Below are positions 14,406 through 43,165 of a stretch of DNA of 46,572 nucleotides, piece by piece (positions within the stretch are counted from its first letter, which is position 1; each line of letters begins with the position of its first letter). Below the pieces are notes generated by a model. That model worked only from the letters and a program-made list of their open reading frames with translations. It did no database searches and was not told the origin of the DNA. A program made the position numbers and the translations under genes. Source of the stretch: a virus; IMG/VR virus record IMGVR_UViG_3300028577_000020, positions 1 to 46,572 of that record; one strand, given 5' to 3'.

Positions 14406-14786
14406 ATGGCAGACATTGATTACGCAGCTCTTCAACAGTCGTTCGACACGACGTGGGGCCGTTCATCGACACCCAAGACGGCAGGATACTCTGTCAAGGT
14501 GACGCTGTTGGGACCTGATCGGCTGATGACATCGTACGCCGCTATCGTCAATTTTGGTACCGAGAGGGAATCACTTGAGATGAAACGGCGCTATGCCGAG
14601 GAATCAAAGGCGGTGACCAGCGAGGTCTTGAAGGTGGTCAAGGCCAATTACAAGGAATTGGCCGATGCGTCACTGTCGACCAAAGAGTTGTCGAGCGAAG
14701 ACAGCCTTGAGATCACCAACTACAACGTTCATAACCCCCGCCGAAGTGCCTATTACAGGCGCAAGACGGTGTACGAGATCGGGTGA
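14406..14786 (+). CDS. Conserved protein upstream of terminase, small-terminase position
   Basis: This is a 126-residue protein with no recognised domain. It starts MADIDYAALQQSFDTTW, has a beta segment (YSVKVTLLGPDRLMTSYAAI), then a long helix with many charged residues (EMKRRYAEESKAVTSEVLK). It ends NPRRSAYYRRKTVYEIG. The stop overlaps the terminase ATG as TGATG. T4 has small terminase gp16 in this position, but the sequence shows no helix-turn-helix or other gp16 mark, so the equivalence rests on place alone. A GAGGAG site 9 bases upstream and a TATTTA element mark it as the first gene of the head operon. Confidence 0.6.
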   Translation: MADIDYAALQQSFDTTWGRSSTPKTAGYSVKVTLLGPDRLMTSYAAIVNFGTERESLEMKRRYAEESKAVTSEVLKVVKANYKELADASLSTKELSSEDSLEITNYNVHNPRRSAYYRRKTVYEIG

Positions 14787-17626
14787 TGAGTGAACCTCAT
14801 CTAGGCCTGTCGAAGCCTCAACAGGTGCAAGAGATCCTGAAGTGTGGTAAGGATCCCATCTACTTCATCAAGACCTACGTCAAAATTCAGCACCCGAAGA
14901 GGGGGACGATCCCGTTTGAGACCTACCCGTTTCAGGACGACTGCATCAATGACTTCAAAGAACACCGCCTCAACATCGTCCTGAAGTCACGGCAGTTGGG
15001 ACTATCGACGATCAGCGCGGCATACTCGCTGTGGCTGGCGATCTTTCACAAGGACAAGAATGTCCTCGTCATTGCGACCAAGCTACCCACGGCCATGAAC
15101 TTCATCAAGAAGATCAGGGTCATGTTGCAGAGCCTGCCCCCATGGCTGTTGCTACCCAAGTTTGAGCCCACCAAGCAGGCCATCGCCTTCAGCAATGGCT
15201 CGACGATCACCGCCATTCCGACGTCCGACGATGCCGGGCGATCGGAGGCCTTGTCACTGCTGATCGTTGATGAGGCTGCCTTCATCCGTGACTTTGAGGA
15301 GATCTGGACAGGACTGGCACCCACCTTCTCGACGGGAGGTAGTGCCATCATCTTGTCGACGCCCAATGGTGTCGGTGGCCAGTACTACCGCCTGTGGGTC
15401 GAGGCCGAGGCGGGCCTCAATGACTTCAATCCCATTAGGCTGATGTGGGATGTGCACCCGGAACACGATCAGGCGTGGTTTGTGAAGGAGAGCAGATCGC
15501 TGTCGAGGCGTAAGGTCGCTCAGGAGTTCTTGTGCGTGGGCGGTGATACCAAGATTGTGACGCCTGATGGGTACAAGATGGCAGAAGAGTTGCACATCGG
15601 CGACTTGGTCATGACGCACGTTGGTAGGTTTCGTCCTGTCACCCGGGTAAATAGTAGGCTTGTAAAAGACGGCGAGGAACTGTATGAGGTCAGTTCACCA
15701 GGTAGTCGTCAGTGTAAGTTCGTCTTGACTGGCAATCATCCCATGTTGTCATACCGTTTTCGTGCCAATCAGATCACGTCACTTCAATGGATTGAACAGA
15801 ATGCGTGTGAGCCATCGTGGATTGAGGCTACGACAATTGCCGGTACTCGTAAGACCACGGATCGAATTCTCAACGCGCTAGTACCAGTGTTTAGGCCTGA
15901 TGAACCCACTGAACGCTTGACGTCGATTGATTTGTCGACGCTTTACCCATCAGTCGATGTAACGCCTGACACGTGCCGCTATGTGAAGCAATGGGGTAGT
16001 ACTAAACGTCATGTGCCTGTTGACTTTGACTTAGGCATGTTTGTAGGATTGTACTTGGCTGAGGGGTGTAATGCACGGGGTGGGCTTGACATGGGGTTTC
16101 ACATTGATGAGATGGAGACACACGCTCGTTGGTGCGTTGATTTTCTCGAGAAGTTGGGTTGTCGAACGACGTTGTCTCCATCAGAGATTGCAAATGGTTG
16201 TCGTCTGTGGACACACAATAAACATGTTGGTGCGCTTGTCAGATCGTTTGTCATGGGTCAAACGGCTCCTATTAAACATCTTGATCTTGATAGGGTTCTA
16301 TCATGTGGCCGTGAGTTTATCAAAGGTCTATTGTATGGGCATCACGCGGGAGATGGTAATCACGAGCACACTACGAAGACATCCACGTTCAGTACTTCGT
16401 CGAAGTTGGTGTATCAATTACGTACCCTCAACACCATGTTTGGTCTGTATCCTCGGATCGGGCGTGTTGAACGTAGTAAAAAGAACCCAAAGCACCATGA
16501 TATGTGGTATCTCGAGTTTCAGGCAGGTGGGACGACGTACCGTGAATTGCTCGAACGCGGACAATTGTACAAGCCCGGATCAAGGACGCGTCTCATTGGT
16601 GAGTACTTTGTTGGTCAGCACTCATTGAAGGATATATCGCACCTTCGTGATGTCGATGGGGGTTACACCGTCTATGATATCAGTGTGGCCGATGACAATT
16701 CATTTGTTGCTCAATCTGCAGTTCTTCACAATTGCGACTTCATCACGTCGGGTGACACCTTCCTACAACCCGGTGACCTCGATGACCTAAAGTTGCAGAT
16801 CATGCAACCTGCGTCGAAGGAGGGCTTTGATCGCAACATCTGGGTCTGGAGCCCACCCATTGCTGGTCACACCTACGTCATCAGCGCCGACGTGTCGAGG
16901 GGCGATGCACGTGATTATTCGGCCTTTCACATCATCGATGCGGGTGACTGCGAAGTGGCCGCCGAGTACATGGGCAAGGTGCCGCCCGAGAAACTGGCCG
17001 ACATGTTGAACGAGTGGGGCCGCAAGTACAACGATGCCCTATTGGTGCCCGAGAACAACACCTTTGGCTACTTCGTCAACGTCAAACTCCGCGATGCGCT
17101 GGGCTACAAGAAGCTGTACTACACCAGCAACGGCGGCGACCCCTTCAATTACGTGCCCACCAACTCTGAGGAGCTGCCGGGTTTCCCGACTAACCAGAAG
17201 TCACGGGTGCAGATCCTGGCCAAGCTGGAGGAGATGATTCGCAACAAGACGTTGAAGACGTACTCACAGCGCCTCTATGATCAATTGCAGGCCTTCGTGT
17301 GGAACGGCAACAAGCCCATGGCCGGCAAGGACAGCTTCGATGACTTGATCATGAGCCTCGCCATTGGTTGTTGGTTGGTCGAGGGCAGCAATGGCCTCAG
17401 TGAACAGGCCGTCGCCATGTCGTACGCTATCCTCAATGCGACCCGCGTCCACGTTCGGGACATCAATCAGATGCCCGGCGGCGTCAACGAGGCACAGCCT
17501 TTGGTCAATCCCAACATCAAGGGCATGAATGCACAGAGTGTCTATCGACCACGCGACGCGTCGCAGGTGGCACCACGTAATCCGTACCAAAGAGACGTCA
17601 GTGACTTTCGCTGGTTGACTAGATGA
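14786..17626 (+). CDS. gp17: Terminase large subunit, T4 gp17-like, interrupted by an intein
   Basis: From ATG 14786 the precursor is 946 residues; removing a 400-residue intein leaves about 546. The ATPase half has a Walker A variant, IVLKSRQLGLSTISA, Walker B LLIVDEAAF, and a coupling motif ILSTPNGVGG. After the intein comes the RNase H-like nuclease: YVISADVSRGDARDYSAF with catalytic Asp, LVPENNTFG with Glu, and DSFDDLIMSLAIG with C-terminal Asp residues. The enzyme pumps DNA into the prohead through the portal and cuts concatemers. The intein sits between AQEFL and CDFITSG, at a conserved point joining ATPase and nuclease. Splicing must occur to make an active motor. It overlaps the upstream gene as TGATG. 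Confidence 0.93.
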   Translation: MSEPHLGLSKPQQVQEILKCGKDPIYFIKTYVKIQHPKRGTIPFETYPFQDDCINDFKEHRLNIVLKSRQLGLSTISAAYSLWLAIFHKDKNVLVIATKLPTAMNFIKKIRVMLQSLPPWLLLPKFEPTKQAIAFSNGSTITAIPTSDDAGRSEALSLLIVDEAAFIRDFEEIWTGLAPTFSTGGSAIILSTPNGVGGQYYRLWVEAEAGLNDFNPIRLMWDVHPEHDQAWFVKESRSLSRRKVAQEFLCVGGDTKIVTPDGYKMAEELHIGDLVMTHVGRFRPVTRVNSRLVKDGEELYEVSSPGSRQCKFVLTGNHPMLSYRFRANQITSLQWIEQNACEPSWIEATTIAGTRKTTDRILNALVPVFRPDEPTERLTSIDLSTLYPSVDVTPDTCRYVKQWGSTKRHVPVDFDLGMFVGLYLAEGCNARGGLDMGFHIDEMETHARWCVDFLEKLGCRTTLSPSEIANGCRLWTHNKHVGALVRSFVMGQTAPIKHLDLDRVLSCGREFIKGLLYGHHAGDGNHEHTTKTSTFSTSSKLVYQLRTLNTMFGLYPRIGRVERSKKNPKHHDMWYLEFQAGGTTYRELLERGQLYKPGSRTRLIGEYFVGQHSLKDISHLRDVDGGYTVYDISVADDNSFVAQSAVLHNCDFITSGDTFLQPGDLDDLKLQIMQPASKEGFDRNIWVWSPPIAGHTYVISADVSRGDARDYSAFHIIDAGDCEVAAEYMGKVPPEKLADMLNEWGRKYNDALLVPENNTFGYFVNVKLRDALGYKKLYYTSNGGDPFNYVPTNSEELPGFPTNQKSRVQILAKLEEMIRNKTLKTYSQRLYDQLQAFVWNGNKPMAGKDSFDDLIMSLAIGCWLVEGSNGLSEQAVAMSYAILNATRVHVRDINQMPGGVNEAQPLVNPNIKGMNAQSVYRPRDASQVAPRNPYQRDVSDFRWLTR
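15533..16732 (+). mobile_element. Intein with LAGLIDADG endonuclease in terminase
   Basis: This in-frame insertion of 400 residues occupies residues 250-649 of the precursor. It begins with Cys (CVGGDTKIVTPDGYK, block A), has block B in VLTGNHPMLSY, block F in TVYDISVADDNSFVAQ, and ends AVLHN before a Cys +1 residue (block G). All splicing residues are present: Cys1, block B His, terminal Asn with preceding His, and Cys+1. The central region has two LAGLIDADG-like helices, MFVGLYLAEG and FIKGLLYGHHAGDG, with acidic residues kept. It is therefore likely an active homing intein. Its base composition is AT-richer than the flanking exteins. Confidence 0.92.
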
Positions 17627-18660: not shown

Positions 18661-21600
18661 ATGGCGAAACGCGAACCTAGAAGCCTCTTTAGAAGGTTAA
18701 GTCGACTTTTCAAGAGTGGCCCAGTCGTGAAGAGGAAGATACGTGCCCTCGACACGAGCATTGCTGTCGCCGATAAGACGAAGAGCTCGGGTACCCTGCT
18801 CTTTCAGAAGTCGTTGTCTCCCACGTATGCGACGATCACGAGCAACGCATACAATCTCTCGGAACGATTAATGAGGTATCAAGATTTTCAAGAGATGGAA
18901 TATAGTGTTGACGGTGCGACCTTGATTGCCCAACCTGATGGGTTCAAGACAATCGCCGAGTTGGCTGCGGAGTGTGAAGCAGATCCCAACAAGACGTTCA
19001 TCGTTTACTCTTATGACCATGAGCAGAAGCGCATTGTACCTGCATGGGGTAAGCAGGCGCGCCAAACGTGTGTTGACCATGCGTGGAAGGTGACGTTCGA
19101 TAACGGCAAGTCGCTGACGTTGAGCCCCGAACACCGCTTGATGTTGCGCGATGGTACGTATCGCAAGACTGAGGACTTACAGCCTGGCGATGCGATGATG
19201 CCATTCTACCGCAAGGATCTGTTTGCGAACGCAGAAGAGGGCACTAAGGGGTACTCGTGGGTCTACACGATGGATGGACGTTTTCGCGGGTGGACGAAGG
19301 AACACCAGCTGGTATCTGAGTGGGTGGCCGGACGAGAGTTGACTGAGGATGAGTGCGTTCACCACATCAACTTCGTCAAGACCGACAACAGGCCTGAGAA
19401 CTTGCGTATCATGACGAAGAGCGACCACAGCTCGTACCATGCAGCGCTCAACAATGGGGTGAAGTGGGCGCCAGAGAATCAAGAATGGATCGAAAGGTTC
19501 AAAAAACAGCACGCAGAGTGGATGCGTAACAATGCACCATCGCGCCGCAACGATGTCACGTTCTCTAGAATCATTCAGATCGCTGAGAAGGTTGGCTTCG
19601 ACATCACCAAAGTGTCCAGGGCCCTTAATGTCACTACGTTCTTGGTTCATGAGCGGCTCACTGCCAATGGGTTTCCTACGTTCGAAGCGTTTACAGCGGC
19701 ATATGGTCACGGTATACCTGAGGTTGTCATTCATCAGGCCTCAAAGCTAACGCGTGAACTGTCGCTTGACACGATCAAACACTTGATTGTTGAGGCAGAC
19801 ACCAAACGTTCGATGGCGGTGAAGTTAGGTTGTACCGTCAATGTCCTCGATAAGTTCCTCAATCGGCGCATTAATCGAACGTGGAATGATGTGAGGAAGG
19901 AATGTGGGTTGACTACCTACAAACAAATTCGTCAAGGAGGTCGTCCCAAGGGTTCAAACGGCAGCGATCTCACGTTCAAACAGATCTGTGATGCTTTCGA
20001 ACCAGGCCTCACCTTGCCACGTCTGACTGAAAAGCTAGGTGTCAACAAGAATACGATTATCTCTCGCCTTGCGCAGAACGGCTTCAAGAAGTTTAGTGAG
20101 TTCGGCGCATCTTACCAGAACTGCAAGGTCGTTTCTGTCGAGTACGTCGGCATCATTCCCCTCTATGACCTCACAGTCGATGGTTACAAGAACTTTGCAA
20201 CCGACAGCGTCATCTCACACAACACCCCTGAGATCGCTGCCGCGATGGACATCTATGCCGATGAGACCGTCGCCGCAGATGAGAAGGGCATGTGCCTCCA
20301 CGTCTACTCCGACAATGAGAAGATCAAGGAGCTGCTCGAGGACCTCTTCTACAACGTCCTCAACATTGAATTCAACTTGCGCTCGTGGGCTCGTAACCTC
20401 TGCAAGTACGGCGACTTCTTCCTCTACAATGACGTGTCGCCCGAGTACGGCGTCGTCAACGCTTTCCCGATCCCGGTCAACGAGGTCGAGCGCGAAGAGA
20501 ACTATGACCGTGAAGATCCCTTCGCCGTCCGTTATCGTTGGGTGACGTTGGGCAACAGGACGCTCGAAAATTGGGAGGTGACCCACTTCCGCTTGTTGGG
20601 CAATGACATGTTCCTCCCATATGGCTCGTCGATCATTGAGCCCGCGCGCCGCATCTGGCGCCAGCTCATCCTGATCGAGGACGCCATGTTGGTCTACCGC
20701 GTCGTGCGTGCCCCCGAGCGCCGCGTTTTCTACATTGACGTGGCCAACGTGCCCGCGACTGAAGTCAACAATTACATCGAACAGCAACGTCAACAGATGA
20801 GGACGACGCCGGTCGTTGACAACCAAACTGGCCGCGTCGACCTACGCTATAATCCGATGTCCGTTGAGGAGGACTTTTTCATCCCGGTGCGTGGTGGCGA
20901 GAGCGGCACTAAGATCGACACGTTGGCGGGTGGTGTCAACACTGCCGCAGTTGAGGACGTCGCCTACATTCAGAAGAAGCTGTTCGCTGCACTGAAGATC
21001 CCGCGGGCCTACTTGGGCTACGATGAGATGTTGAGCAGCAAGGCGACGCTGGCACAGGAGGACATTCGGTTCTCCCGCACCATCTCCGTCATTCAGAAGA
21101 CGATGATGGCCGAGCTCAATAAGTTGGCCATCATTCACCTGTACGCTCATGGCTTTGACAATGAGGACCTGCAGAACTTCACCCTACGCCTCAGCAATCC
21201 GTCGACCGTCGCTCAACAGCAGAAGTTGGAGCTGTGGCGCGCCAAGTTTGAAATTGCGGGTTCGGCCCCCGAGGGTATGGCCAGCAAGAAGTTCATTCGC
21301 AAGGAGATCTGGGGATTGAACGACGAGCAGATGGAGGCCATCGACGAGGAACGGTTGGCTGAAAAGAAGATCGATGATGCCATCGAGGCAGGTGAGGGTG
21401 CTGACGACGGTGGAGGCGGGGGTGCAGGTGGAGGCGGGGGTGACGATGACCTCTTTGGAGACGCCGGCGCTGGTGGTGGCGATGAAGGTGGCGGCGCCGA
21501 AGAAGCAGGTGGTGGCGAAGAGAAGGCTCCACCTGAAGAGAATGCGGGTGAAGAACCCGAAGAAGAGGTTGAGCCCGGCGCTCAATTGTTGACCAGCGGC

Positions 21601-22104
21601 GACGACAATGACAATGAGTCATTCGCATTGAAGTTGGGTGACAGCGATGATAGCAAACCCATCAAGCCCAAGTCGCAGCTCCAAAAGGCCCTCTATAACA
21701 ACAGTCGCCACCGCAACCACGGTGCCAGCAAGACGCACATGCCTGACTTTCAGAAGATGACGTCGAATGACAATCCCGCGATGGAAGATCCCTACGACAA
21801 TGATTGGTTGAAGTCAGTCGTGACGAATCCATTCGCTGAGGGTAGTTCGCCTCCCATCGGGCGCCGGACGAGACTGTCTGCTGACATTATGTCAACAATG
21901 AGGAGAATGACAGCTAAGTTCACTGCCGATGGTGAGGTTACTCGAGCTACGTTGAATGAGGGCCGTGATGTGCAGGATGAGATCGATGGAGGAGGTCAAT
22001 CCATGTTCGATCTTGACATTGATGCTGACGTTACGCCGAGTCGCGGTCAGCTCAACGAGAGCGCAGTACTTATTGGTGATCCCACCGGGGAGGACGACGA
22101 ATGA
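18661..22104 (+). CDS. gp20: Portal vertex protein, T4 gp20-like, interrupted by an intein
   Basis: The precursor is 1,147 residues; without the 440-residue intein it is about 707, longer than T4 gp20 (524). Extein marks of T4-type portals are RYQDFQEMEY joined to TPEIAAAMDIYADET, then DFFLYNDVSPEYG, VTHFRLLGNDMFLPYGSS, EPARRIWRQLILIEDAMLVY, RVVRAPERRVFYIDV and LFAALKIPRAYLGYDE. The portal is the dodecameric DNA channel to which terminase docks. The extra length is a C-terminal tail: a Gly-rich and Asp/Glu-rich low-complexity stretch (from about residue 918), then a basic segment, probably projecting into the head interior. The start has AGAGGGG upstream. The stop overlaps the next ATG as ATGA. 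Confidence 0.92.
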   Translation: MAKREPRSLFRRLSRLFKSGPVVKRKIRALDTSIAVADKTKSSGTLLFQKSLSPTYATITSNAYNLSERLMRYQDFQEMEYSVDGATLIAQPDGFKTIAELAAECEADPNKTFIVYSYDHEQKRIVPAWGKQARQTCVDHAWKVTFDNGKSLTLSPEHRLMLRDGTYRKTEDLQPGDAMMPFYRKDLFANAEEGTKGYSWVYTMDGRFRGWTKEHQLVSEWVAGRELTEDECVHHINFVKTDNRPENLRIMTKSDHSSYHAALNNGVKWAPENQEWIERFKKQHAEWMRNNAPSRRNDVTFSRIIQIAEKVGFDITKVSRALNVTTFLVHERLTANGFPTFEAFTAAYGHGIPEVVIHQASKLTRELSLDTIKHLIVEADTKRSMAVKLGCTVNVLDKFLNRRINRTWNDVRKECGLTTYKQIRQGGRPKGSNGSDLTFKQICDAFEPGLTLPRLTEKLGVNKNTIISRLAQNGFKKFSEFGASYQNCKVVSVEYVGIIPLYDLTVDGYKNFATDSVISHNTPEIAAAMDIYADETVAADEKGMCLHVYSDNEKIKELLEDLFYNVLNIEFNLRSWARNLCKYGDFFLYNDVSPEYGVVNAFPIPVNEVEREENYDREDPFAVRYRWVTLGNRTLENWEVTHFRLLGNDMFLPYGSSIIEPARRIWRQLILIEDAMLVYRVVRAPERRVFYIDVANVPATEVNNYIEQQRQQMRTTPVVDNQTGRVDLRYNPMSVEEDFFIPVRGGESGTKIDTLAGGVNTAAVEDVAYIQKKLFAALKIPRAYLGYDEMLSSKATLAQEDIRFSRTISVIQKTMMAELNKLAIIHLYAHGFDNEDLQNFTLRLSNPSTVAQQQKLELWRAKFEIAGSAPEGMASKKFIRKEIWGLNDEQMEAIDEERLAEKKIDDAIEAGEGADDGGGGGAGGGGGDDDLFGDAGAGGGDEGGGAEEAGGGEEKAPPEENAGEEPEEEVEPGAQLLTSGDDNDNESFALKLGDSDDSKPIKPKSQLQKALYNNSRHRNHGASKTHMPDFQKMTSNDNPAMEDPYDNDWLKSVVTNPFAEGSSPPIGRRTRLSADIMSTMRRMTAKFTADGEVTRATLNEGRDVQDEIDGGGQSMFDLDIDADVTPSRGQLNESAVLIGDPTGEDDE
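18904..20223 (+). mobile_element. Ser1 intein with HNH endonuclease in portal protein
   Basis: The insertion spans residues 82-521 of the precursor (440 residues). It starts with Ser, not Cys (SVDGATLIAQPDGFK, block A). Block B is LTLSPEHRLMLRDG, block F is PLYDLTVDGYKNFAT, and it ends VISHN before Thr+1. An HNH domain is seen in CVHHINFVKTDNRPENLRI followed by KSDHSSYH. Beyond it come at least three helix-turn-helix-like repeats (FDITKVSRALNVTTFLVHE, DTKRSMAVKLGCTVNVLD, LPRLTEKLGVNKNTIISR) likely to bind DNA. Ser1 and Thr+1 are both allowed nucleophiles but are a less common pairing. Confidence 0.9.
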
Positions 22105-28058: not shown

Positions 28059-30008
28059 ATGAAGTTCTTCAGCATGGAACAGCTTGCCGCCGGTATTAAA
28101 GACCGGCACGTCGGCGCCGAGCGCGCCCGACTGGTAGAGAAGTGGAGCCGCACCGGCCTGCTTCGTGGCCTCGATGGCCAGCGCCGAGAGATGATGGCGC
28201 AGCTCCTGGAGAACCAGGCAGCGCAGGTCCTCCGCGAGGTCGGTAACTCGATCTCGACGGGTGGCGGTAACATGTCCAACTCGGGACAGATCTCCGGCTT
28301 CACCAACATCGCCTTCCCGATCGTCCGCCGCGTCTTCGGTGGCCTCGTCGCCAATGAGCTGGTGTCGATCCAGCCGATGAGCCTGCCGTCCGGCCTGATC
28401 TTCTACCTCGACTACACTTACGGCACCAACGTCGGTGGCGAGGGCACGTCGACGGCGGCGACCTACGCTTCCGGACAGTCGATCTATAACAACCCAACCG
28501 GCAAGGGTGTCCAGTCAGGATCGCTGGCGACGGGCGGCATGTACGACCTCGTCAACGTGGGCTTCAGCAAGGTGCACCAGTCGGCGTGGATCGGCGGCGC
28601 AGCTAGCCCCTACAACACCGGTTCTAGCGGCCAGGTCGGCGCGTGGAACAACCTCAACGGTACCTTCATGCCGGGTGGCCTCATCTCGGCAATGTCGGGC
28701 GTCAATGGCCAGCTCTGCAACTTCGACCCGCAGCTCGATGTCGACATGCAGTCGGGCCTGCTCAACGCCGTCTTCCTGTACCTCAACGTTGCCGACATGC
28801 AGTCGAGCGTTGCGAACGGTGACTTCTTGGCCGTCGAACAGGTCGCGGTCTTCGCGCTCAGCGGTACTGTTGTCAACAACGGCCTCACCGCCTGGAGCCA
28901 ATCGTACCAGTCGGGTAACGGCGTCCTCAACCTTCGCCGCCTCAACAAGCGCGGTAACCTCGCCAGCTCCAGCTTCACGCTGAACCCGCTGGCAGGCACC
29001 CAAGTCCAGTGCGTCCTCCAGACGCCGGCGTTCGGTAACACGTGGCAGGGTGCTTCGGCGGCTACCACCGCCAACGGCGCGTTGCTTCGCTTCGATGCAG
29101 CGTCGAACGTTCGCTTCTCGATGACGATCGCAGACGGCCTGACGACTGACCGCAGCGGCGACGGCGCCACGCTGGTCATCCCGTCGTTCGAGTCGGACTT
29201 CGGCGTCAACCCGTCGCCCGCCATCCCCGAGATTGACATCAAGATTGAGTCGATCTCCATCACCGCGACGACCCGCAAGCTCCGTGCTCGCTGGTCTCCC
29301 GAGCTCGCACAGGACCTCAATGCGTACCACTCGATGGACGCTGAGGTTGAGTTGACGAGCATCCTGTCGGAGCAGATCGCTCTCGAAATTGACCGAGAGA
29401 TCTTGAACGACCTCGTCACCGAAGCCAACGGCGCCAACATGTACTGGAGCCGTGCACCGGGCAAGTTCGTCAACAAGCTGACGGGCATCAACTCGACGCT
29501 GGCGACCAACTTGTCGATCGGGCCGCAGTTCACCGGCACCGTTCGCGAGTGGTACGAGACGCTGGTCGAGACCTGCATCGACTGCGCCAACACCATTCAC
29601 CGCAAGACGCTCCGTGGCTCGGCCAACTTCATGGTCACCAGCCCCGACGTGTCGACCATCTTCGAGTCATCGGTGCTCTACAAGCCGAAGTACTCGATCG
29701 ACGGCGAAGGTCAAGTCGGATCGCCCTTCACCATCGGCGCGGAGGCCATTGGCACCCTGTCGAATCGCTTCACGGTGTACAAGGATCCCTACTTCCCCCG
29801 TAACCGCATCCTGATCGGCTACAAGGGCGGCAGCTACCTTGAGACCGGGTACGTGTACTCTCCGTACGTGCCCCTCATCGTGACGCCGACCATCTTCGCC
29901 CCCGAAGACTTCACACCGAGGAAAGGCGTAATGACGCGGTACGGTAAGAAGATGGTGCGCACCGACTTCTACGGCACCGTCACCGTGCTCGACATGAACA
30001 TCATCTAA
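28059..30008 (+). CDS. gp23: Major capsid protein, T4 gp23-like
   Basis: This 649-residue protein (T4 gp23 is 521) begins MKFFSMEQLAAGIKDRHVG. The N-terminal helical part ends in MAQLLENQAAQVL, where L-L-E at 49-51 fits a gp21 cleavage site, so maturation probably removes about 51 residues. The HK97-type body has FTNIAFPIVRRVFGGLVANE, VSIQPMSLPSGLIFYLDY, KARWSPEL-like KLRARWSPELAQDLNAYHSM, EIALEIDREIL in the form SEQIALEIDREILNDL, and LIGYKGGSYLETGYVYSPYV near the end. The central insertion (about 140-370), with Gly/Ser/Asn-rich beta sequence, is the source of the extra length and may be a surface domain. A strong AGGAG precedes the start, and a rho-independent-type terminator follows the gene. 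Confidence 0.95.
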   Translation: MKFFSMEQLAAGIKDRHVGAERARLVEKWSRTGLLRGLDGQRREMMAQLLENQAAQVLREVGNSISTGGGNMSNSGQISGFTNIAFPIVRRVFGGLVANELVSIQPMSLPSGLIFYLDYTYGTNVGGEGTSTAATYASGQSIYNNPTGKGVQSGSLATGGMYDLVNVGFSKVHQSAWIGGAASPYNTGSSGQVGAWNNLNGTFMPGGLISAMSGVNGQLCNFDPQLDVDMQSGLLNAVFLYLNVADMQSSVANGDFLAVEQVAVFALSGTVVNNGLTAWSQSYQSGNGVLNLRRLNKRGNLASSSFTLNPLAGTQVQCVLQTPAFGNTWQGASAATTANGALLRFDAASNVRFSMTIADGLTTDRSGDGATLVIPSFESDFGVNPSPAIPEIDIKIESISITATTRKLRARWSPELAQDLNAYHSMDAEVELTSILSEQIALEIDREILNDLVTEANGANMYWSRAPGKFVNKLTGINSTLATNLSIGPQFTGTVREWYETLVETCIDCANTIHRKTLRGSANFMVTSPDVSTIFESSVLYKPKYSIDGEGQVGSPFTIGAEAIGTLSNRFTVYKDPYFPRNRILIGYKGGSYLETGYVYSPYVPLIVTPTIFAPEDFTPRKGVMTRYGKKMVRTDFYGTVTVLDMNII

Positions 30009-32206: not shown

Positions 32207-32572
32207 GGGGATGAAAGGTTTCGACACGGCGAAGACTTGGTGCGAAGCAGGCCAGGGGCGACCAGGTGCCCTGACAAACACGTGGTCACGTTTGATCGCC
32301 AACGATAACGGCATCGCTGATTACGCTCTCGTGGCGTAACCAACGGGTTCCCAACGACCTAGGAACAGAATGTTGGGCGCGCTGACACGTCGTCAGCAAA
32401 AACGTCTACCTCCCGACGTGATTGGGAGCACGCCAAAGCTCGTGAGTGAGGTGCGTGTAAGAAGTGTCCTAACCCACTAGTCCCGCCCGAGGACGATCAA
32501 GTAGATGGGCTAAACCTGTAGAATCGCACCGAAGACGCGTCGTGGACCCGGGATCATTCCCCGGCATCTCCA
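32207..32572 (+). ncRNA. ssrA: Transfer-messenger RNA (tmRNA)
   Basis: This is a complete one-piece tmRNA. The 5' end GGGGATG pairs with CATCTCC (32565-32571) as a seven-pair acceptor with one G-U, leaving A32572 as discriminator. CCA is not encoded. The D-like segment GGTTTCGAC follows. Helix 2 is CACGGCG (32225-32231) with CGTCGTG (32538-32544). A T-arm is CCGGG/CCCGG with a seven-base loop, ATCATTC. Pseudoknot 1 folds by hand: CTTGGT/ACCAGG (32236, 32261) and CAGGG/CCCTG (32253, 32269). A later one is ACGTC/GACGT with CTCCC/GGGAG (32402-32428). A conserved GGGCTAAACCTGTAGA lies near the 3' end. The RNA rescues stalled ribosomes with SmpB, which must come from elsewhere. Loop positions 54 and 58 are A and U instead of U and A. 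Confidence 0.95.
32298..32339 (+). other. ssrA: tmRNA tag reading frame, ANDNGIADYALVA
   Basis: The resume codon GCC (32298) opens 13 codons and a TAA stop. The tag starts AND and ends YALVA, like bacterial tags ending in ALAA, which ClpXP and relatives recognise. Ending in LVA rather than LAA is a mild variant that could alter degradation rate. Confidence 0.93.
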
Positions 32573-32598
32573 CGAATTCCAACGATAGAAAGACACAG

Positions 32599-35626: not shown

Positions 35627-38600
35627 GTGACTGCGAACGTCGTCGTTGACACAGTGAGCATCAACTACCCGATCATGTCGGGTGCAGTGCAGATCACGGG
35701 TTCCGTCTCTCTCAATCCCGCACCCATCATCACTGCGAATACGGCGACGACGGGCACCTTGGGCCTTGCCGTCGGCAACGCGCCCTACGCACCGCTCTTC
35801 GTCACGGGTTCTGTTTCCCTAAATCCAGCGCCAGTCATCACTGCGAATACGGCGACGACGGGCACGGCCGGCCTGGCGGTGGGCAATGCACCCTATCAAC
35901 CCATCTACGTCAGCGTCACCAGTTCGCTGCCTGTCACCGGGTCAGTCTTTGTCATCAATCCCACGACTGTCACGGTGCCGCAACCCCTGCAAGTCTGGAG
36001 TGAGGGAGCGGTAGGCATCAGCGGTTCGGTGTCAATTCTCGGTCAGGTCGGCGTCGACAACTTCCCAGCGACGCAGAACGTCAGTGGCTCGGTCACCGTG
36101 GGTGGCTATGCAGTCGGGGTGACCGGGTCGACCTACATCACCACGACGGGCTCTCTTCCTGTCGCTGTCGTCGGTACAGTCCCTGTCTCCGTCGCTGGTA
36201 CCATCAACGTTGCCCAACAAGGGCAGATCGGCGTTGACAATTTCCCGGCGGTGCAAGCCGTCAGTGGTTCCGTCGCCCTGACCAATTGGCCGGTGACGAT
36301 CGGTATTTCCGGCTCTGCACCCCTCCAAGTGTGGTCAGAGGGCAACTTGGGGGTCTCGGGCTCCGTCTCAGTGTTGGGCCAGGTCGGCGTCTACAACTTC
36401 CCGGCCACGCAGAACGTCTCGGGTACCGTCACTGTCGGGGGTTATGCCACCGGCGTTACCGGGTCGACCTACATCACCACGACGGGCTCTCTTCCCGTCG
36501 CCGTGGTGGGCACTGTTCCTGTTTCTGTCGCCGGCACCGTCAATGTCTCTCAACAAGGTCAGATCGGTGTTGACAACTTCCCGGCCACCCAGAATGTGTC
36601 GGGGACGGTGCAGGTTTGGTCTGCAGGCAACATCGGGGTATCAGGTTCTGTTTCAATCCTCGGTCAGGTCGGCGTCTACAACTTCCCAGCCACCCAGAAC
36701 GTCAGCGGCACTGTCACTGTGGGTGGTTACTCTGTCGGCGTAACGGGGTCGACATACATCACCACGACTGGCTCTCTCCCCGTTACTGTCGTTGGGACAG
36801 TGCCGGTCAGCCTTACTTCACAGGTCCAAGTCAGCAACTTCCCGGCGACACAGGCAGTGTCGGGTGCGGTGGCACTGACGAATTGGCCATTGACGATCGC
36901 CGTCAGCGGTTCGCAGCTCACGGGTTCAACTTTCGCGGGTTCTCCTGTCGTCGCCGGCGGCGTCTACTTTGGTTCTGGCAACATCGGTTCGCTGCCGACC
37001 TATGTCAAGGCACTGCAGACCGACATCAGTGGCGCTCAATACATCACCACGACGGGTTCGTTGCCAGTCGCCGTGGTGGGCACTGTCCCGGTGTCACTGG
37101 CCTCTCAAGTCCAAGTCAGCAACTTCCCGGCGACCCAAAACGTCAGCGGGTCGATCACCGTCGGGGGCTACGGCGTCGGCGTCACCGGCTCTACCTATGT
37201 GACGACAACGGGCTCACTTGCGGTCGCGCCCGGCGACGGTGCTCAGTTCTCGGTCACGAACACTGCAGTTGCTCCTTTGTGGATCACTGGGTCGGTCAAT
37301 ATCTCGGGTGCGGCGTTCGTCCTCACCGCGTCAGTCTCTTCATCGATCAACATCGGGGCTGCGGTCGCGATCTCTAACTGGCCAGCCATTATTGGCGTCA
37401 CTGCGTCGGCACCCATCCAAGTCTGGAGTGAGGGTAACGTCGGCGTGTCAGGATCGGTGTCGATCCTTGGGCAAGTGGGAGTTGACAACTTCCCAGCAAC
37501 GCAGAATGTCTCGGGTTCGGTTGCACTGACCAACTGGCCCGCAACGATCGGAGTGTCGGGATCACAGCTCAGTGGCTCTACGTTCTCGGGCTTTCCTGTC
37601 GTCGCCGGCGGCGTCTACTTTGGCTCGGGCAACGTGGGCTCTCTACCAGTCTACGTCAAGGCGCTACAGACTGACATCTCGGGTGCCCAGTACATCACTA
37701 CGACGGGTTCTCTGCCTGTCGCTGTCGTTGGTACCGTCCCGGTGTCGCTGGCATCTCAAGTCCAAGTCAGCAACTTCCCGGCCACACAGAACGTCTCAGG
37801 CACCGTCACCGTCACCACATCGGGTCCGCTTCAGATCTGGAGCGAAGGTGCAGTCGGCGTCACGGGGTCAGTGGCCCTCAGTAACTGGCCGGCGACGATC
37901 GGTATCTCAGGTTCTGCGCCAATTCAAGTGTGGTCGGAGGGCAACGTCGGGATCTCTGGCTCCGTCTCAGTATTGGGTCAGGTCGGCGTCTATAACTTCC
38001 CAGCGACTCAAGCGGTCTCTGGCACTGTCACTGTGGGTGGCTATTCTGTCGGGGTGACGGGTTCCACCTACATCACGACGACGGGTTCTCTCCCTGTCGC
38101 CGTGGTGGGTACGGTTCCAGTCTCCATTGCAGGTACCGTCAACACTTCGCAACAGGGTCAGATTCAGGTCAGTAACTTCCCAGCCACGCAAAACGTTAGC
38201 GGTACTGTCACTGTCACCACATCGGGCCCGCTGCAAGTCTGGAGCGAAGGGGCTACGGGGATCACCGGTTCCGTCGCTTTGACGAACTGGCCATTGACGA
38301 TCGCCGTCAGCGGTTCACAGCTCACGGGCTCGACCTTTGCGGGGTCACCCCTCGTCGCCGGCGGCGTCTATTACGGCTCGGGCAACATCGGTTCACTACC
38401 GACCTACGTCAAAGCAATTCAGACCGACATCTCGGGTGCAGTCTACATCACTTCGACAGGATCTTTTCCCGTCGCTGTGGTGGGTACTGTCCCAGTTTCG
38501 TTGGCATCACAGGTCCAAGTCTCCAACTTCCCGGCGACGCAGAACGTGTCGGGAACTGTCACCGTCACCACTACTGGCCCAATCCAAGTCTGGAGTGAAG

Positions 38601-41600
38601 GGGCCACAGGCGTCACCGGTTCGGTTGCTTTGACCAACTGGCCAGCGACAATAGGAGTGTCAGGCTCCGTCTCTGTCCTCGGCCAGATCGGTGTCGACAA
38701 CTTTCCAGCGACACAGAACGTTAGCGGCACAGTCACTGTCGGCGGTTACTCTGTTGGGGTCACCGGGTCTACATACATCACGACGACAGGTTCCCTTCCC
38801 GTCGCTGTCGTCGGCACCGTTCCTGTCTCGATCGCAGGCACTGTCAATACTTCGCAACAAGGGCAGATCCAGGTCAGCAATTTCCCGGCGACACAAGCCA
38901 TCAGCGGTACCGTCGCTCTGTCGAACTGGCCGGCTGTCATCGGGGTGTCGGGTTCGCAGCTCACCGGCTCGACTTTTGCGGGTTCTCCTGTCGTCGCCGG
39001 CGGCGTTTACTTCGGTTCTGGCAACATTGGCTCTCTTCCGGTCTACGTCAAAGCGTTGCAGACTGACATCTCGGGTGCCCAGTACATTACCACGACGGGC
39101 TCTCTTCCAGTCGCCGTCGTCGGCACTGTCCCAGTTTCTCTGGCGTCGCAAGTCCAAGTCAGCAACTTCCCGGCGACACAGAACGTCAGCGGCACTGTCA
39201 CTGTTACGACGACAGGCCCGCTACAGGTGTGGTCAGAGGGCAACGTCGGCGTCTCAGGCTCCGTCTCTGTCCTCGGCCAGATCGGCGTCTACAACTTCCC
39301 GGCAACGCAGAATGTCAGCGGTTCGATCACTGTCGGTGGCTATGGCGTCGGTGTCACAGGATCTACCTACATCACCACGACGGGCTCTCTCCCTGTTGCT
39401 GTCGTCGGTACAGTCCCAGTCTCCATTGCGGGAACCGTCAACACTTCGCAGCAAGGGCAGATCCAAGTCAGCAACTTCCCGGCAACTCAAAACGTGTCGG
39501 GGACTGTCACCGTCACCACGACTGGCCCACTTCAAGTCTGGAGTGAGGGAGCGGTAGGCGTCACTGGCTCCGTCGCTCTAACGAATTGGCCTGCAACGCT
39601 CGGCATCTCAGCATCTGCACCCATCCAAGTCTGGAGCGAGGGCAACGTCGGGGTCTCGGGCTCCGTCTCGGTGTTGGGTCAAGTCGGCGTCTACAACTTC
39701 CCTGCCACTCAGAACGTCTCAGGTTCAATCACGGTGGGTGGTTACGGTGTTGGGGTCACCGGTTCGACCTACATCACCACGACAGGTTCTTTGGCCGTCG
39801 CTCCCGGTGATGGTGCTACCTTCCCAGTGTCGATTGCATCGACTGTCAACGTTGCGCAACAAGGCCAGATTCAAGTCTCCAATTTCCCAGCGACGCAGAA
39901 TGTCAGCGGTTCGATCACCGTCGGTGCGTGGGGTACCAACGTCACTGGCTCGATCACCGGCTCTGTCTTCGTCATCAATTCTCAACCAGTAACGTTCCCA
40001 GCCATCTTGCAGGTCTGGAGCGAAGGGGCTACGGGGGTCACGGGTTCGGTTGCTCTGACCAACTGGCCCGCAACGCTGGGTGTCTCGGGTTCGCAGCTAA
40101 CTGGCTCGACTTTTGCGGGTTCTCCCGTCGTCGTGGGAGGTGCCTATTACGGCTCGGGCAACATCGGTTCGCTGCCGACCTACGTCAAGGCAATTCAGAC
40201 TGACATCTCGGGTGCAGTCTACGTCACTGCATCGGGTTCTCTGCCCGTCACTTTTGGAGCACTGCCTCAACTGCAGATCTCCAACTTCCCGGCGACACAG
40301 AACGTCAGCGGGACCGTGGCGATCACCACGACTGGCCCGATCCAAGTCTGGAGTGAGGGCGCGACGGGGGTGACGGGATCAGTTGCACTGACCAACTGGC
40401 CTGCAACTATCGGTGTGTCGGGTTCTGTGGCCATCACAAACCAGGTCGGCGTCTACAACTTCCCGGCGACACAGAACGTCTCGGGTACCGTCACTGTCGG
40501 CGGTTACTCTGTCGGTGTCACCGGGTCGACCTACATTACTTCAACGGGTTCGCTCCCAGTTGCTGTTGTCGGCACTGTCCCAGTCTCGATTGCCGGCACT
40601 GTCAACACTTCGCAGCAAGGGCAGATCCAAGTCAGCAACTTCCCGGCAACTCAGGCAGTGTCGGGCACCGTCGCTCTATCAAATTGGCCCGCCGTCATCG
40701 GGGTGTCGGGTTCACAACTTACAGGCTCAACCTTCGCGGGTTCTCCCGTCGTCGCTGGTGGTGTCTACTTCGGTTCTGGTAACATCGGCTCTCTTCCGGT
40801 TTACGTCAAGGCGATCGAAACTGACATCTCAGGTGCTGTCTACATCACTTCGACAGGATCTCTCCCCGTCGCCGTGGTGGGTACTGTCCCAGTGTCGTTG
40901 GCCTCTCAAGTTCAAGTCTCCAATTTTCCAGCGACGCAGAACGTGTCGGGGACTGTCACCGTCACCACGACGGGTCCACTACAAGTTTGGAGCGAAGGTG
41001 CAGTCGGCGTAACGGGGTCAGTGGCCCTCTCAAATTGGCCGGCGACGATCGGTATTTCCGGCTCTGCTCCCCTTCAAGTGTGGTCGGAGGGCAACGTCGG
41101 GGTCTCGGGTTCCGTCTCGGTGCTGGGCCAGATCGGCGTCTACAACTTCCCGGCAACGCAGAACGTCAGCGGGTCGATCACCGTTGGTGGTTACGGCGTC
41201 GGCATCACGGGTTCGACTTACATCACGTCGACCGGGTCACTGCCCGTAGCCGTCGTGGGCACTGTTCCCGTCAGCATTGCGGGTACCGTCAACACCTCAC
41301 AACAGGGGCAGATCCAAGTCTCCAACTTCCCGGCAACCCAAAACGTGTCGGGGACTGTCACCGTCACCACGACGGGTCCTCTGCAAGTGTGGTCAGAAGG
41401 TGCAGTCGGTGTCACCGGTTCCGTCGCCCTGACGAACTGGCCCGCGACGGTGGGTGTCTCGGGCTCTGTCTCCGTCACTAACCAAGTCGGTGTCTACAAC
41501 TTCCCGGCCACACAGAACGTGACGGGTTCGGTTGCGCTCAGCAATTGGCCAGCGACATTGGGCATCAGCGGCTCGCAGTTGACCGGGTCGACCTTCGCGG

Positions 41601-43165
41601 GCTCTCCCGTCGTTGCTGGTGGTGTTTACTTCGGCTCGGGCAACATTGGTTCGCTGCCCGTCTATGTCAAGGCACTGCAGACTGACATCTCAGGCGCGCA
41701 GTACATTACCACGACGGGCTCTCTCCCGGTCGCCGTGGTGGGCACCGTTCCTGTTTCTCTGGCATCTCAAGTCCAAGTCAGCAACTTTCCGGCGACCCAA
41801 AACGTCAGCGGTACTGTCACTGTCACCACGACTGGTCCATTGCAGGTTTGGAGCGAAGGTGCAGTCGGCGTCACTGGCAGCGTTGCACTGACGAACTGGC
41901 CCGCAACAGTGGGCGTGTCGGGCTCCGTCTCGGTGCTGGGCCAGGTCGGCGTCTACAACTTCCCGGCCACGCAGAACGTCTCAGGCACTGTCACCGTGGG
42001 TGGCTACAGCGTTGGGGTGACGGGTTCCACTTACATCACTTCAACGGGATCTCTACTTGTCGCCGTGGTGGGTACCGTCCCTGTCAGCATCGCTGGTACT
42101 GTCAACACTTCGCAACAAGGTCAAGTCGGCGTCTACAACTTCCCGGCGACACAGAACGTGTCGGGCTCCATCACGCTGGGCGCTTGGGCCGCCAACGTCA
42201 CAGGCTCGACCACCGTCACCGTCAGCGGCTCCACGGGCCTGATGGTCGCCGCTCCACAGAACGCTCCCGTGTGGATGACGGGTTCCGTCGCCCTCAACCC
42301 AGTGCCGACGATCAATGCCTCGACGTCAACGACGGGCACCTTAGGTTTGGCGGTTGGCAATGCACCCTACGCGCCCCTGTATGTCACTGCGTCGGTGGGT
42401 TCACCGTTCTGGGTGACGGGTACCATCACCGTCAATAACCCGAGTGGTGGAGGCGCCGGGGGCGCCGTCACTCAAGGCACTACGCCGTGGCTAGTGGCGC
42501 AGGAGGGTATGGTCGGCGTTTCAGGCTCCGTCGCCCTGACCAACTGGCCACTGACGATCAACGTGTCGTCATCGGCGGGTTTGACGGGTAGCTTTGGCAT
42601 CAATCAGTACTACGGCGTACCACCCCTGACGACCCCCGTTGCACAGTCGATCCCATCCAACCAGCTCAACGTCACTCCATGGACGCTGTCGCTCACGGGC
42701 TCGCTCAGCGCGTCGAACGGCCAAGCGTTGCCCCTGAAGAGCGACTACCAGGGTAACCTCGCTAGCCGTGAGCAGTATGCACCCGTTGCCGAGGACAACT
42801 TCAATGGTGTCATTGCGACGGCACCCCTGCCACTCGCCGTCAGCTACTACAGCCCGACGTTCACGGGTTCGGTGGGATCGTTGCCCGGCCAGATCAAGAC
42901 GGCGCCGGGTACCTTGTACCGTGTCTTTGCGACCAACCGCAATGGCCAAGTGCGATACCTGACGCTGCACAACACTAGCTCGGGCGGCCCGTCTGGCGTG
43001 CCCATTGCCGCTTACCCAATCCCGTCCTTGGGTACCTACGTCCTCGACTATGCTCCCTGGGGTAACTTCTTCAGCGTCGGTGTCATCGTCGGCATCTCGA
43101 CCAGCAACACCACCTACACCGCAGCAACTCCTGCAGATCACGACTTCAGTGTGTTGTACAGATAA
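35627..43165 (+). CDS. Giant repeat-built tail fibre protein, 2512 aa
   Basis: The GTG start is followed by 2,512 residues in one open frame. An N-terminal region (about 1-100) carries two copies of an ITGSVSLNPAPIITANTATT-type unit. Residues about 130-2190 are built from recurring short beta units: VQVSNFPATQNVSGTVTV (about 29 copies of NFPATQ or close variants by hand count), VALTNWPATIGVSGS, LPVAVVGTVPVSLAS, GPLQVWSEGAVGVTGS and GSTFAGSPVVAGGVYFGSGN. These are combined into longer modules. The composition (Gly, Ser, Thr, Val; very few Lys) fits a long beta-structured fibre. The last 250 residues are unique (ending HDFSVLYR) and are probably the tip or an attachment domain. The role is host attachment by inference. 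The DNA repeats are similar enough for recombination between modules. Confidence 0.8.
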   Translation: MTANVVVDTVSINYPIMSGAVQITGSVSLNPAPIITANTATTGTLGLAVGNAPYAPLFVTGSVSLNPAPVITANTATTGTAGLAVGNAPYQPIYVSVTSSLPVTGSVFVINPTTVTVPQPLQVWSEGAVGISGSVSILGQVGVDNFPATQNVSGSVTVGGYAVGVTGSTYITTTGSLPVAVVGTVPVSVAGTINVAQQGQIGVDNFPAVQAVSGSVALTNWPVTIGISGSAPLQVWSEGNLGVSGSVSVLGQVGVYNFPATQNVSGTVTVGGYATGVTGSTYITTTGSLPVAVVGTVPVSVAGTVNVSQQGQIGVDNFPATQNVSGTVQVWSAGNIGVSGSVSILGQVGVYNFPATQNVSGTVTVGGYSVGVTGSTYITTTGSLPVTVVGTVPVSLTSQVQVSNFPATQAVSGAVALTNWPLTIAVSGSQLTGSTFAGSPVVAGGVYFGSGNIGSLPTYVKALQTDISGAQYITTTGSLPVAVVGTVPVSLASQVQVSNFPATQNVSGSITVGGYGVGVTGSTYVTTTGSLAVAPGDGAQFSVTNTAVAPLWITGSVNISGAAFVLTASVSSSINIGAAVAISNWPAIIGVTASAPIQVWSEGNVGVSGSVSILGQVGVDNFPATQNVSGSVALTNWPATIGVSGSQLSGSTFSGFPVVAGGVYFGSGNVGSLPVYVKALQTDISGAQYITTTGSLPVAVVGTVPVSLASQVQVSNFPATQNVSGTVTVTTSGPLQIWSEGAVGVTGSVALSNWPATIGISGSAPIQVWSEGNVGISGSVSVLGQVGVYNFPATQAVSGTVTVGGYSVGVTGSTYITTTGSLPVAVVGTVPVSIAGTVNTSQQGQIQVSNFPATQNVSGTVTVTTSGPLQVWSEGATGITGSVALTNWPLTIAVSGSQLTGSTFAGSPLVAGGVYYGSGNIGSLPTYVKAIQTDISGAVYITSTGSFPVAVVGTVPVSLASQVQVSNFPATQNVSGTVTVTTTGPIQVWSEGATGVTGSVALTNWPATIGVSGSVSVLGQIGVDNFPATQNVSGTVTVGGYSVGVTGSTYITTTGSLPVAVVGTVPVSIAGTVNTSQQGQIQVSNFPATQAISGTVALSNWPAVIGVSGSQLTGSTFAGSPVVAGGVYFGSGNIGSLPVYVKALQTDISGAQYITTTGSLPVAVVGTVPVSLASQVQVSNFPATQNVSGTVTVTTTGPLQVWSEGNVGVSGSVSVLGQIGVYNFPATQNVSGSITVGGYGVGVTGSTYITTTGSLPVAVVGTVPVSIAGTVNTSQQGQIQVSNFPATQNVSGTVTVTTTGPLQVWSEGAVGVTGSVALTNWPATLGISASAPIQVWSEGNVGVSGSVSVLGQVGVYNFPATQNVSGSITVGGYGVGVTGSTYITTTGSLAVAPGDGATFPVSIASTVNVAQQGQIQVSNFPATQNVSGSITVGAWGTNVTGSITGSVFVINSQPVTFPAILQVWSEGATGVTGSVALTNWPATLGVSGSQLTGSTFAGSPVVVGGAYYGSGNIGSLPTYVKAIQTDISGAVYVTASGSLPVTFGALPQLQISNFPATQNVSGTVAITTTGPIQVWSEGATGVTGSVALTNWPATIGVSGSVAITNQVGVYNFPATQNVSGTVTVGGYSVGVTGSTYITSTGSLPVAVVGTVPVSIAGTVNTSQQGQIQVSNFPATQAVSGTVALSNWPAVIGVSGSQLTGSTFAGSPVVAGGVYFGSGNIGSLPVYVKAIETDISGAVYITSTGSLPVAVVGTVPVSLASQVQVSNFPATQNVSGTVTVTTTGPLQVWSEGAVGVTGSVALSNWPATIGISGSAPLQVWSEGNVGVSGSVSVLGQIGVYNFPATQNVSGSITVGGYGVGITGSTYITSTGSLPVAVVGTVPVSIAGTVNTSQQGQIQVSNFPATQNVSGTVTVTTTGPLQVWSEGAVGVTGSVALTNWPATVGVSGSVSVTNQVGVYNFPATQNVTGSVALSNWPATLGISGSQLTGSTFAGSPVVAGGVYFGSGNIGSLPVYVKALQTDISGAQYITTTGSLPVAVVGTVPVSLASQVQVSNFPATQNVSGTVTVTTTGPLQVWSEGAVGVTGSVALTNWPATVGVSGSVSVLGQVGVYNFPATQNVSGTVTVGGYSVGVTGSTYITSTGSLLVAVVGTVPVSIAGTVNTSQQGQVGVYNFPATQNVSGSITLGAWAANVTGSTTVTVSGSTGLMVAAPQNAPVWMTGSVALNPVPTINASTSTTGTLGLAVGNAPYAPLYVTASVGSPFWVTGTITVNNPSGGGAGGAVTQGTTPWLVAQEGMVGVSGSVALTNWPLTINVSSSAGLTGSFGINQYYGVPPLTTPVAQSIPSNQLNVTPWTLSLTGSLSASNGQALPLKSDYQGNLASREQYAPVAEDNFNGVIATAPLPLAVSYYSPTFTGSVGSLPGQIKTAPGTLYRVFATNRNGQVRYLTLHNTSSGGPSGVPIAAYPIPSLGTYVLDYAPWGNFFSVGVIVGISTSNTTYTAATPADHDFSVLYR
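36028..42180 (+). repeat. Long tract of tandem and interspersed coding repeats in fibre gene
   Basis: About 29 units carry the AACTTCCC(G/A)GC(G/A)AC core encoding NFPAT, within longer blocks that recur in the same order. Synonymous differences between copies are frequent, so the array is not very recent. Some copies differ in only a few bases, so gene conversion is likely. Confidence 0.85.

Follow-up and report, generated by a model that had tools for sequence, protein, structure and literature searches.

An uncultured T4-like phage carries a complete one-piece tmRNA gene (ssrA), at positions 32207-32572 (+) of the 46,572-base linear IMG/VR virus record analyzed here, which we call the window; its encoded mature ends are G1 and A73. 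We consider it probable (about 0.7) that this gene specifies a full-length, working tmRNA that selection maintains across a T4-like phage clade and that acts in host-dependent trans-translation. The T-loop of this RNA has A54 and U58 in place of U54 and A58.

A complete tmRNA gene with an altered T-loop

ARAGORN called a single tmRNA in the 46,572-base window, at 32207-32573 (+), and found no second tRNA or tmRNA anywhere in it. The Rfam tmRNA model RF00023 matched 32207-32575 over its full length (model positions 1-374), scoring 84.7 bits where the gathering score is 47 (E = 1.5e-31). A preliminary description of this DNA had proposed a complete ssrA gene, not a fragment, and had named a covariance-model search and ARAGORN as the check; both programs call the tmRNA, and they agree on its completeness. 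Of the weaknesses that it had foreseen, neither a low score nor a sequencing error was found, as the score is 84.7 bits and the T-loop is identical in two more contigs. Its 3' end at 32572 was also borne out, along with its statement that CCA is not encoded: the discriminator A73 lies at 32572 and is followed by ACGA.

Two other explanations were rejected. A fragment left by integration was ruled out because the gene is full length by RF00023. A sequencing or assembly error as the source of the T-loop was ruled out because the same tmRNA letters are found in contig L002 (18,290 bases, same virus, one mismatch to the window) and in contig L093 (from the 141,862-base record G081), which is 100% identical to the window over 4,304 bases.

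The features of the gene are collected in Table 1. The acceptor stem (GGGGAUG/CAUCUCC) keeps the G3-U70 pair, which is the alanine identity pair. Inside the RNA lies a tag frame for ANDNGIADYALVA; judged by the Rfam alignment and by comparison with the relatives, it runs from an Ala resume codon, GCC at 32298, to the stop at 32337-32339. ARAGORN reported the tag as ALTNTWSRLI+ANDNGIADYALVA, a start ten residues too early by the same evidence. The loop of the predicted pseudoknot 2 contains a motif, ACCUAGGAACAGAA, that resembles the alpha_tmRNA consensus. A T-loop of the form UUCRANY is very common in tmRNA, though not defining, and the window tmRNA departs from it: its T-arm reads CCGGG-AUCAUUC-CCCGG, with the 54-58 pair swapped to A and U as the preliminary description had read it.

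Folded from its sequence with a program that does not model pseudoknots, the window RNA was moderately stable (z = -1.74; 5 of 100 shuffles were equally good). No sigma-70-type promoter was found near the gene in a scan that does not cover phage promoters.

Table 1. Features of the tmRNA gene and the neighboring capsid gene in the window.
Feature	Position	Strand	Remarks
T4-like major capsid protein gene	28059..30008	+	phrog_138, E 1.8e-71; 2.2 kb upstream of tmRNA
Acceptor stem, 5' strand GGGGAUG	32207..32213	+	7/7 pairs with CAUCUCC 32565-32571; G3 = 32209
D-loop AAAGGUUUCGAC	32214..32225	+	G18 G19 at 32217-32218
Pseudoknot 1 stem, CAGGG with CCCUG	32253..32257 with 32269-32273	+	consensus pairs, 3/5 compensated
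A86-equivalent position	32294	+	-4 to resume codon; G in window
Tag frame ANDNGIADYALVA and UAA stop	32298..32339	+	Rfam alignment; ANDN in relatives
Pseudoknot 2 region	32345..32377	+	stem CCCAAC 32350-32355 / GUUGGG 32372-32377, compensated; loop contains ACCUAGGAACAGAA
T-arm	32548..32564	+	stem CCGGG 32548-32552 / CCCGG 32560-32564, 5/5 pairs
T-loop AUCAUUC	32553..32559	+	A54 U55 C56 A57 U58 U59 C60
Acceptor stem, 3' strand CAUCUCC, and discriminator A73	32565..32572	+	U70 = 32569

The gene accompanies the capsid gene in a clade of T4-like phages

The window carries T4-like phage markers in its capsid protein (phrog_138), T4-type portal (PF07230) and T4-type terminase (PF03237), and we used the capsid gene both to find relatives and to build a tree. 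Compared by capsid protein, the best phage records are only distantly related, with 34-48% identity for the first six among the matches listed. Window positions 22001-46572 gave no near-DNA match to named phages, and a distant DNA search with the window tmRNA returned only one 32-base match (E = 0.5). The tmRNAs of L144, L259, L182 and L254 likewise had no DNA match to named phages, and those of L082, L109 and L219 matched them over 27-30 bases of the T-arm only.

Among the best 80 capsid relatives of the matches listed, RF00023 exceeded its cut-off in 10 of the first 40, counting L002 from the same virus, and in none of the 40 more distant ones, many of which are fragments and which gave one 18-nt match of 17.7 bits. 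All seven capsid-found relatives that reach 71.5% identity and extend 2.5 kb or more past the capsid gene have a tmRNA (among the matches listed), and those at this identity that have none extend at most 2,080 bases past that gene; two further records in this identity range, G082 and G083, came to light via a tmRNA pattern and are counted apart. Thirteen records contain both genes; in 12 of them the tmRNA follows the capsid gene on the same strand at a distance of 1.9-5.4 kb, G388 being the exception.

In a capsid tree of 29 rows, the window falls in a clade of 11 members (98/94 support), 10 of them with a tmRNA; because the rows were picked manually, taking every tmRNA carrier that has a capsid gene (13) and 16 of the relatives without a tmRNA, this proportion is not a frequency. 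Most forks inside the clade are left open. One member, L021, showed no tmRNA in the RF00023 search. The capsid protein of L032, labeled as lacking a tmRNA, is the same as that of G388, a tmRNA carrier. By path, the genome of L101 is nearest to the window among the 29 rows; L003 and L004 are closer by identity but stand outside the tree, and their contigs end before any tmRNA. A scan of genome contigs with a clade-specific pattern gave two matches, neither of them a tmRNA by ARAGORN or Rfam.

Other features were seen in this virus. Record G081, the larger contig, has 24 tRNA-type matches at 96186-133040, 23 of them within 121963-133040, and gave no SmpB match. The portal gene of the window (18661-22104, +) holds an intein with an HNH endonuclease (PF14890, 44.5 bits; PF13392, 32.2 bits; PF07230, 242.7 bits), and the terminase large-subunit gene (14783-17626, +) may be split by a second one: residues 41-251 and 727-861 match terminase, and residues 251-295 give a Hint match below threshold. 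An open frame of 2,512 residues at 35627-43165 (+) contains internal DNA repeats of about 82% identity (35694-36585) and has no convincing Pfam match.

Structure and tag are conserved, and the A86-equivalent base is changed

We aligned 13 tmRNAs, leaving out L039, L151, L155 and L259 as other types and including L220 with extra flanks. RNAalifold predicted 53 pairs in this alignment, 32 of which show at least one change on both sides that keeps the pair, and all five T-stem pairs are compensated. The tag begins with ANDN in all 13, in five nucleotide spellings; L144 and L220 had been found through the ANDN pattern, the other 11 had not. Eleven tags end in -AA and two, those of the window and L497, in -LVA, an ending that still works as a ClpXP signal. 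The LVA end had been noted in the preliminary description, whose suggestion of a tag of altered stability is weak, since L497 has the same ending. T-loops are UUCGAUU or UUCGACU in seven of the 13 and unusual in six: AUCAUUC in the window, UCUCGGAU (8 nt) in L101, GGCAGUA in L090 and L144, UGCAAU (6 nt) in L091 and UGCGAUU in L497.

An A at position -4 of the resume codon, the equivalent of E. coli A86, is nearly universal in tmRNA, although not defining. Ten of the 13 aligned RNAs have it; the window (32294) and L101 have G, and L220 has U. Both the window and L101 have an A one base after this position, and the ANDN frame is still kept. In E. coli, according to PMC2481249, every change of A86 strongly lowers activity, with A86G giving about 50% survival at low stringency; by the model in that paper, an A one base later could shift the frame. 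Because the A86-equivalent is G, tagging by the window RNA may be weak or frame-shifted, and this change is the main result against normal tagging. The preliminary description overlooked it, while its overall reading of a complete phage tmRNA stands.

The AUCAUUC loop recurs in viral tmRNAs of different architecture

An AUCAUUC pattern scan of 2.9 million viral contigs returned 13 stretches, 12 of them with 5/5 T-stem pairs; the thirteenth, in L257, was a chance match (T-stem 1/5). Two of the 12 belong to the window's virus, leaving ten others, and among these the loop recurs in one-piece, permuted and very short tmRNAs with differing T-stems and acceptor stems. L151 and L259 have a one-piece partner end, which RF00023 confirms for L151 but not for L259. 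Six more (L163, L254, L256, L260, L261 and L262) are permuted and each exceeds the cut-offs of both RF01850 and RF04321; L260 and L262, whose scores are similar, may represent a single virus. The remaining two are short. L499 (from the record of L258) is a 106-nt tmRNA above the RF00023 cut-off (55.4 bits), which lacks its middle and in which inspection by eye showed no tag frame. L500 (from the record of L255) is a 140-nt tmRNA below that cut-off (38.7 bits) and may contain a short frame. Pattern scans with GGCAGUA and with UGCRAYU gave at least 120 matches each, mostly permuted among the matches listed. The AUCAUUC pattern was absent from all 296 genomes of one phylum, that of the Flavobacteriales MAG G084, in a search run without a canonical-loop positive control.

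These short RNAs bear on another reading, in which the phage RNA, although charged and bound by SmpB, is poor at tagging and mainly occupies host SmpB or replaces the host tmRNA. Besides L499 and L500, which share the window's loop, the G at the A86-equivalent position in the window and L101 speaks for it. So does a precedent: in PMC11915505 and PMC4131195, a tmRNA like that of phage DS6A, reduced to the tRNA-like domain, inhibits the host tmRNA in E. coli. The DS6A RNA may engage the host's trans-translation partners, as the window RNA may; the latter has a tag and pseudoknots, which, in those sources, the DS6A RNA lacks, and L499 is the nearer parallel. We hold such a displacing role to be rather unlikely for the window RNA, which is full length and keeps its tag frame, synonymous variation, stop and pseudoknots.

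The T-loop is highly conserved, the exceptions named in PMC1168896 being the Reclinomonas mitochondrion and Caulobacter. AUCAUUC is rarer than the known alphaproteobacterial T-loop variants yet of the same kind, and is therefore less isolated than the preliminary description had thought. No description of a recurrent A54-U58 T-loop in viral tmRNAs was found in the literature searched, with subscription papers mostly outside its reach; phage tmRNAs and alpha-type T-loops are already known.

Elbow positions 54-58 and 18-55 change together

A finder blind to the T-loop, run over the fetched viral loci, yielded 207 distinct tmRNAs, one-piece and permuted. Because it accepts only RNAs that start with GG and are fully paired in the acceptor stem (7/7) and T-stem (5/5), it misses degenerate copies as well as some genuine tmRNAs (L088, L497); most of the 207 stem from T-loop-first scans, and the counts describe the matches listed. 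All 207 have G3-U70 among the matches listed, with U70 fixed in the T-loop scan patterns and left free in the ANDN scan (44 of the 207). Once six RNAs with 6- or 8-nt loops are set aside, positions 54-58 in the other 201, all with 7-nt loops, are U-A in 105, G-G in 90 and A-U in six, and nothing else, among the matches listed. G-G and A-U come from one heptamer each (GGCAGUA and AUCAUUC, among the matches listed), so the 54-58 covariation rests on two heptamers. This restriction to three combinations, together with the occurrence of AUCAUUC on differing T-stems and acceptor stems, lends some support to the idea in the preliminary description that the contact might survive the swap, a support limited by the single heptamer behind G-G and behind A-U.

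Position 18 follows position 55. In strict register, A18 was found in 161 of 172 tmRNAs with G55 and in 0 of 34 with U55 (among the matches listed). In the other 11 G55 RNAs, whose D-loop is longer, AG stands one base upstream; the same upstream AG occurs in 14 of the 34 U55 RNAs (both counts among the matches listed), so the shifted G55 cases are weak evidence. The ANDN-scan set (n = 44 among the matches listed) is the only large set not selected on the T-loop; its 40 RNAs with 7-nt loops divide into U-A (30), G-G (8) and A-U (2) at 54-58, and into A18 with G55 (17), G18 G19 with U55 (19) and other (4), among the matches listed. Among the 13 carriers on the capsid tree, position 18 changes its state at least three times; these repeated switches are the safer evidence, since relatedness inflates the counts.

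These observations bear on whether the gene is a captured host tmRNA decaying under relaxed selection, with the T-loop and A86 changes as its marks. Two highly conserved elements are indeed altered in two related phages, the window and L101 (sister fork open), and some capsid relatives have no tmRNA. We nevertheless think decay quite unlikely, as it would not produce intact acceptor and T-stems with compensatory change, the recurrence of an identical AUCAUUC elsewhere, or the joint changes of 54 with 58 and of 18 with 55.

Of 46 sequence variants among the tRNAs of G081, G082 and G083, 44 have the usual U54 and A58, and one more was misparsed. The exception is the tRNA-Gly(GCC) of G082 (L230, minus strand), with T-loop AGCAAAG and A18 (AG) in its D-loop; the 18-55 coupling of the tmRNAs is also present in this tRNA. 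The difference between constant tRNA loops and variable tmRNA loops could point to an altered elbow that escapes a host enzyme reading the T-loop, either a nuclease or a modification enzyme, and the combination of A18 with G55 in the tRNA-Gly(GCC) fits that idea as well. However, the tRNAs would need the same protection, and we know of no host enzyme of that kind; such an escape seems very unlikely to us.

PMC7912444 states that TrmA modifies the tmRNA equivalent of U54, and names the A54-A58 of eukaryotic initiator tRNA as an exception to the U54-A58 contact. A54-U58 may hinder the modifying enzyme, as the preliminary description had supposed, to judge from the loss of U54.

Relation to known tmRNA types

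The window RNA shares with the standard tmRNA (RF00023) its gene order, G3-U70 acceptor, D-loop UUCGAC, Ala resume codon, tag and stop, pseudoknots and T-stem. It differs in having AUCAUUC where the RF00023 consensus T-loop is UUCGAUU, in the G at its A86-equivalent and in belonging to a phage in which no smpB was found. With the two-piece, permuted alpha_tmRNA (RF01849), it shares the ANDN tag start and a pseudoknot 2 loop motif like ACCUnGnAACAGAA, but it is not permuted, as its 5' end precedes the tag and T-arm. The alpha-type elbow, A18/G55 with GGCRGUA, is also absent from the window (G18/U55, AUCAUUC) and present in L090 and L144, which share the alphaproteobacterial T-loop GGCAGUA and D-loop AUAG. 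Since the alpha_tmRNA consensus has T-loop GGCgGUA and D-loop AAuAGG, G55 and G54-G58 are a known alphaproteobacterial feature.

For the coding half, RF04321 and RF00023 scored 27.9 versus 26.4 bits in the window, 46.1 versus 52.3 in L082 and 47.5 versus 144.9 in the E. coli control, and RF01849 was not kept in clan competition for the window or L082. The ACCUnGnAACAGAA motif occurs in 11 of 28 one-piece ANDN tmRNAs (permuted L197 excluded) among the matches listed. An alphaproteobacterial origin, which the ANDN tag and this motif might suggest, is weakened since the covariance models did not decide; the motif itself was compared with the alpha_tmRNA consensus. The beta_tmRNA type (RF01850/RF04321) is represented by the six viral permuted tmRNAs, which share the window's AUCAUUC; their T-stem is GGCGG/CCGCC and the RF01850 consensus loop is UUCGAUU, and the window RNA is one-piece.

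The tmRNA of phage Melnitz is, like the window's, a full tmRNA in a T4-like phage; unlike the window's, it is two-piece and permuted, adjoins a glutamine riboswitch and comes from a marine phage (PMC9004378). Full tmRNAs in large phages with many tRNA genes, like the window's, are described for mycobacteriophages Bxz1, Cali and others in PMC4131195. The window tmRNA had no DNA match at E 1 or better to mycobacteriophage tmRNA records. Mycobacteriophage tmRNA is one-piece. Mycobacteriophage IkeLoa is described with 32 tRNAs and one tmRNA. The preliminary description's view that phage tmRNAs are known but rare agrees with 402 of 18,146 phage genomes in PMC9004378; PMC11915505 counts 79 phage tmRNA sequences among 97,179.

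Separately, we noted a permuted tmRNA that is unannotated in MH588546.1, the genome of Caulobacter phage CcrBL9, a phage of an alphaproteobacterium, at 148179-150008 (L513: 876-1181). It scores 73.3 bits with RF04321, is called tmRNA* by ARAGORN and has T-loop UGCGAUU; the same DNA is in L429, and nine more records of Caulobacter phages, a number that includes RefSeq copies, share the 30-base match.

A proposed role in host-dependent trans-translation

A working phage tmRNA is the explanation that we favor for what was observed, namely the gene, its predicted fold, covariation, synteny, the recurrence of the loop and the lack of a detected SmpB gene. It further takes the gene to be transcribed and its RNA to gain CCA, be charged, use SmpB, tag proteins and benefit the phage. 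Against it count the G at the A86-equivalent, the negative sigma-70-type promoter scan, the only moderate advantage over shuffled sequences in folding energy, and the capsid relatives, many of them fragments, in which no tmRNA was seen. No smpB was found in 11 of 11 phage records searched, several of them fragments, and no TrmA-type methylase in 6 of 6, so partners from the host would be required. Host enzymes would trim the window transcript and add CCA, and the host AlaRS would charge the RNA via G3-U70. Stalling is to be expected as infection destroys host mRNA; host SmpB would deliver the window tmRNA to ribosomes stalled on broken mRNA, the nascent chain would gain ANDNGIADYALVA and go to host proteases, and the ribosome would be freed for phage translation. 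AUCAUUC would serve as an alternative elbow, in which A54/U58 replace U54/A58 and the U55/G18 and C56/G19 contacts are kept.

A bolder reading, which we offer as a long shot, would make A54-U58 a third functional class of tmRNA elbow, reused by phages in full-length, permuted and miniature tmRNAs, with the elbows of the window and L101, together with the loss of A86, marking tmRNAs specialized for displacing or retaining host SmpB instead of normal tagging.

The U54-A58 contact is regarded as a near-fixed feature of the tRNA elbow, and viral tmRNAs supply natural replacements whose positions change together, A-U and G-G at 54-58 and A-G at 18-55, on intact T-stems and acceptor stems. Because the stems of these natural variants are intact, elbow tolerance, modification and SmpB docking become testable with them. 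A phage clade in which the tmRNA commonly lies beside the capsid gene is, in turn, a good system for learning what a phage gains from a tmRNA of its own.
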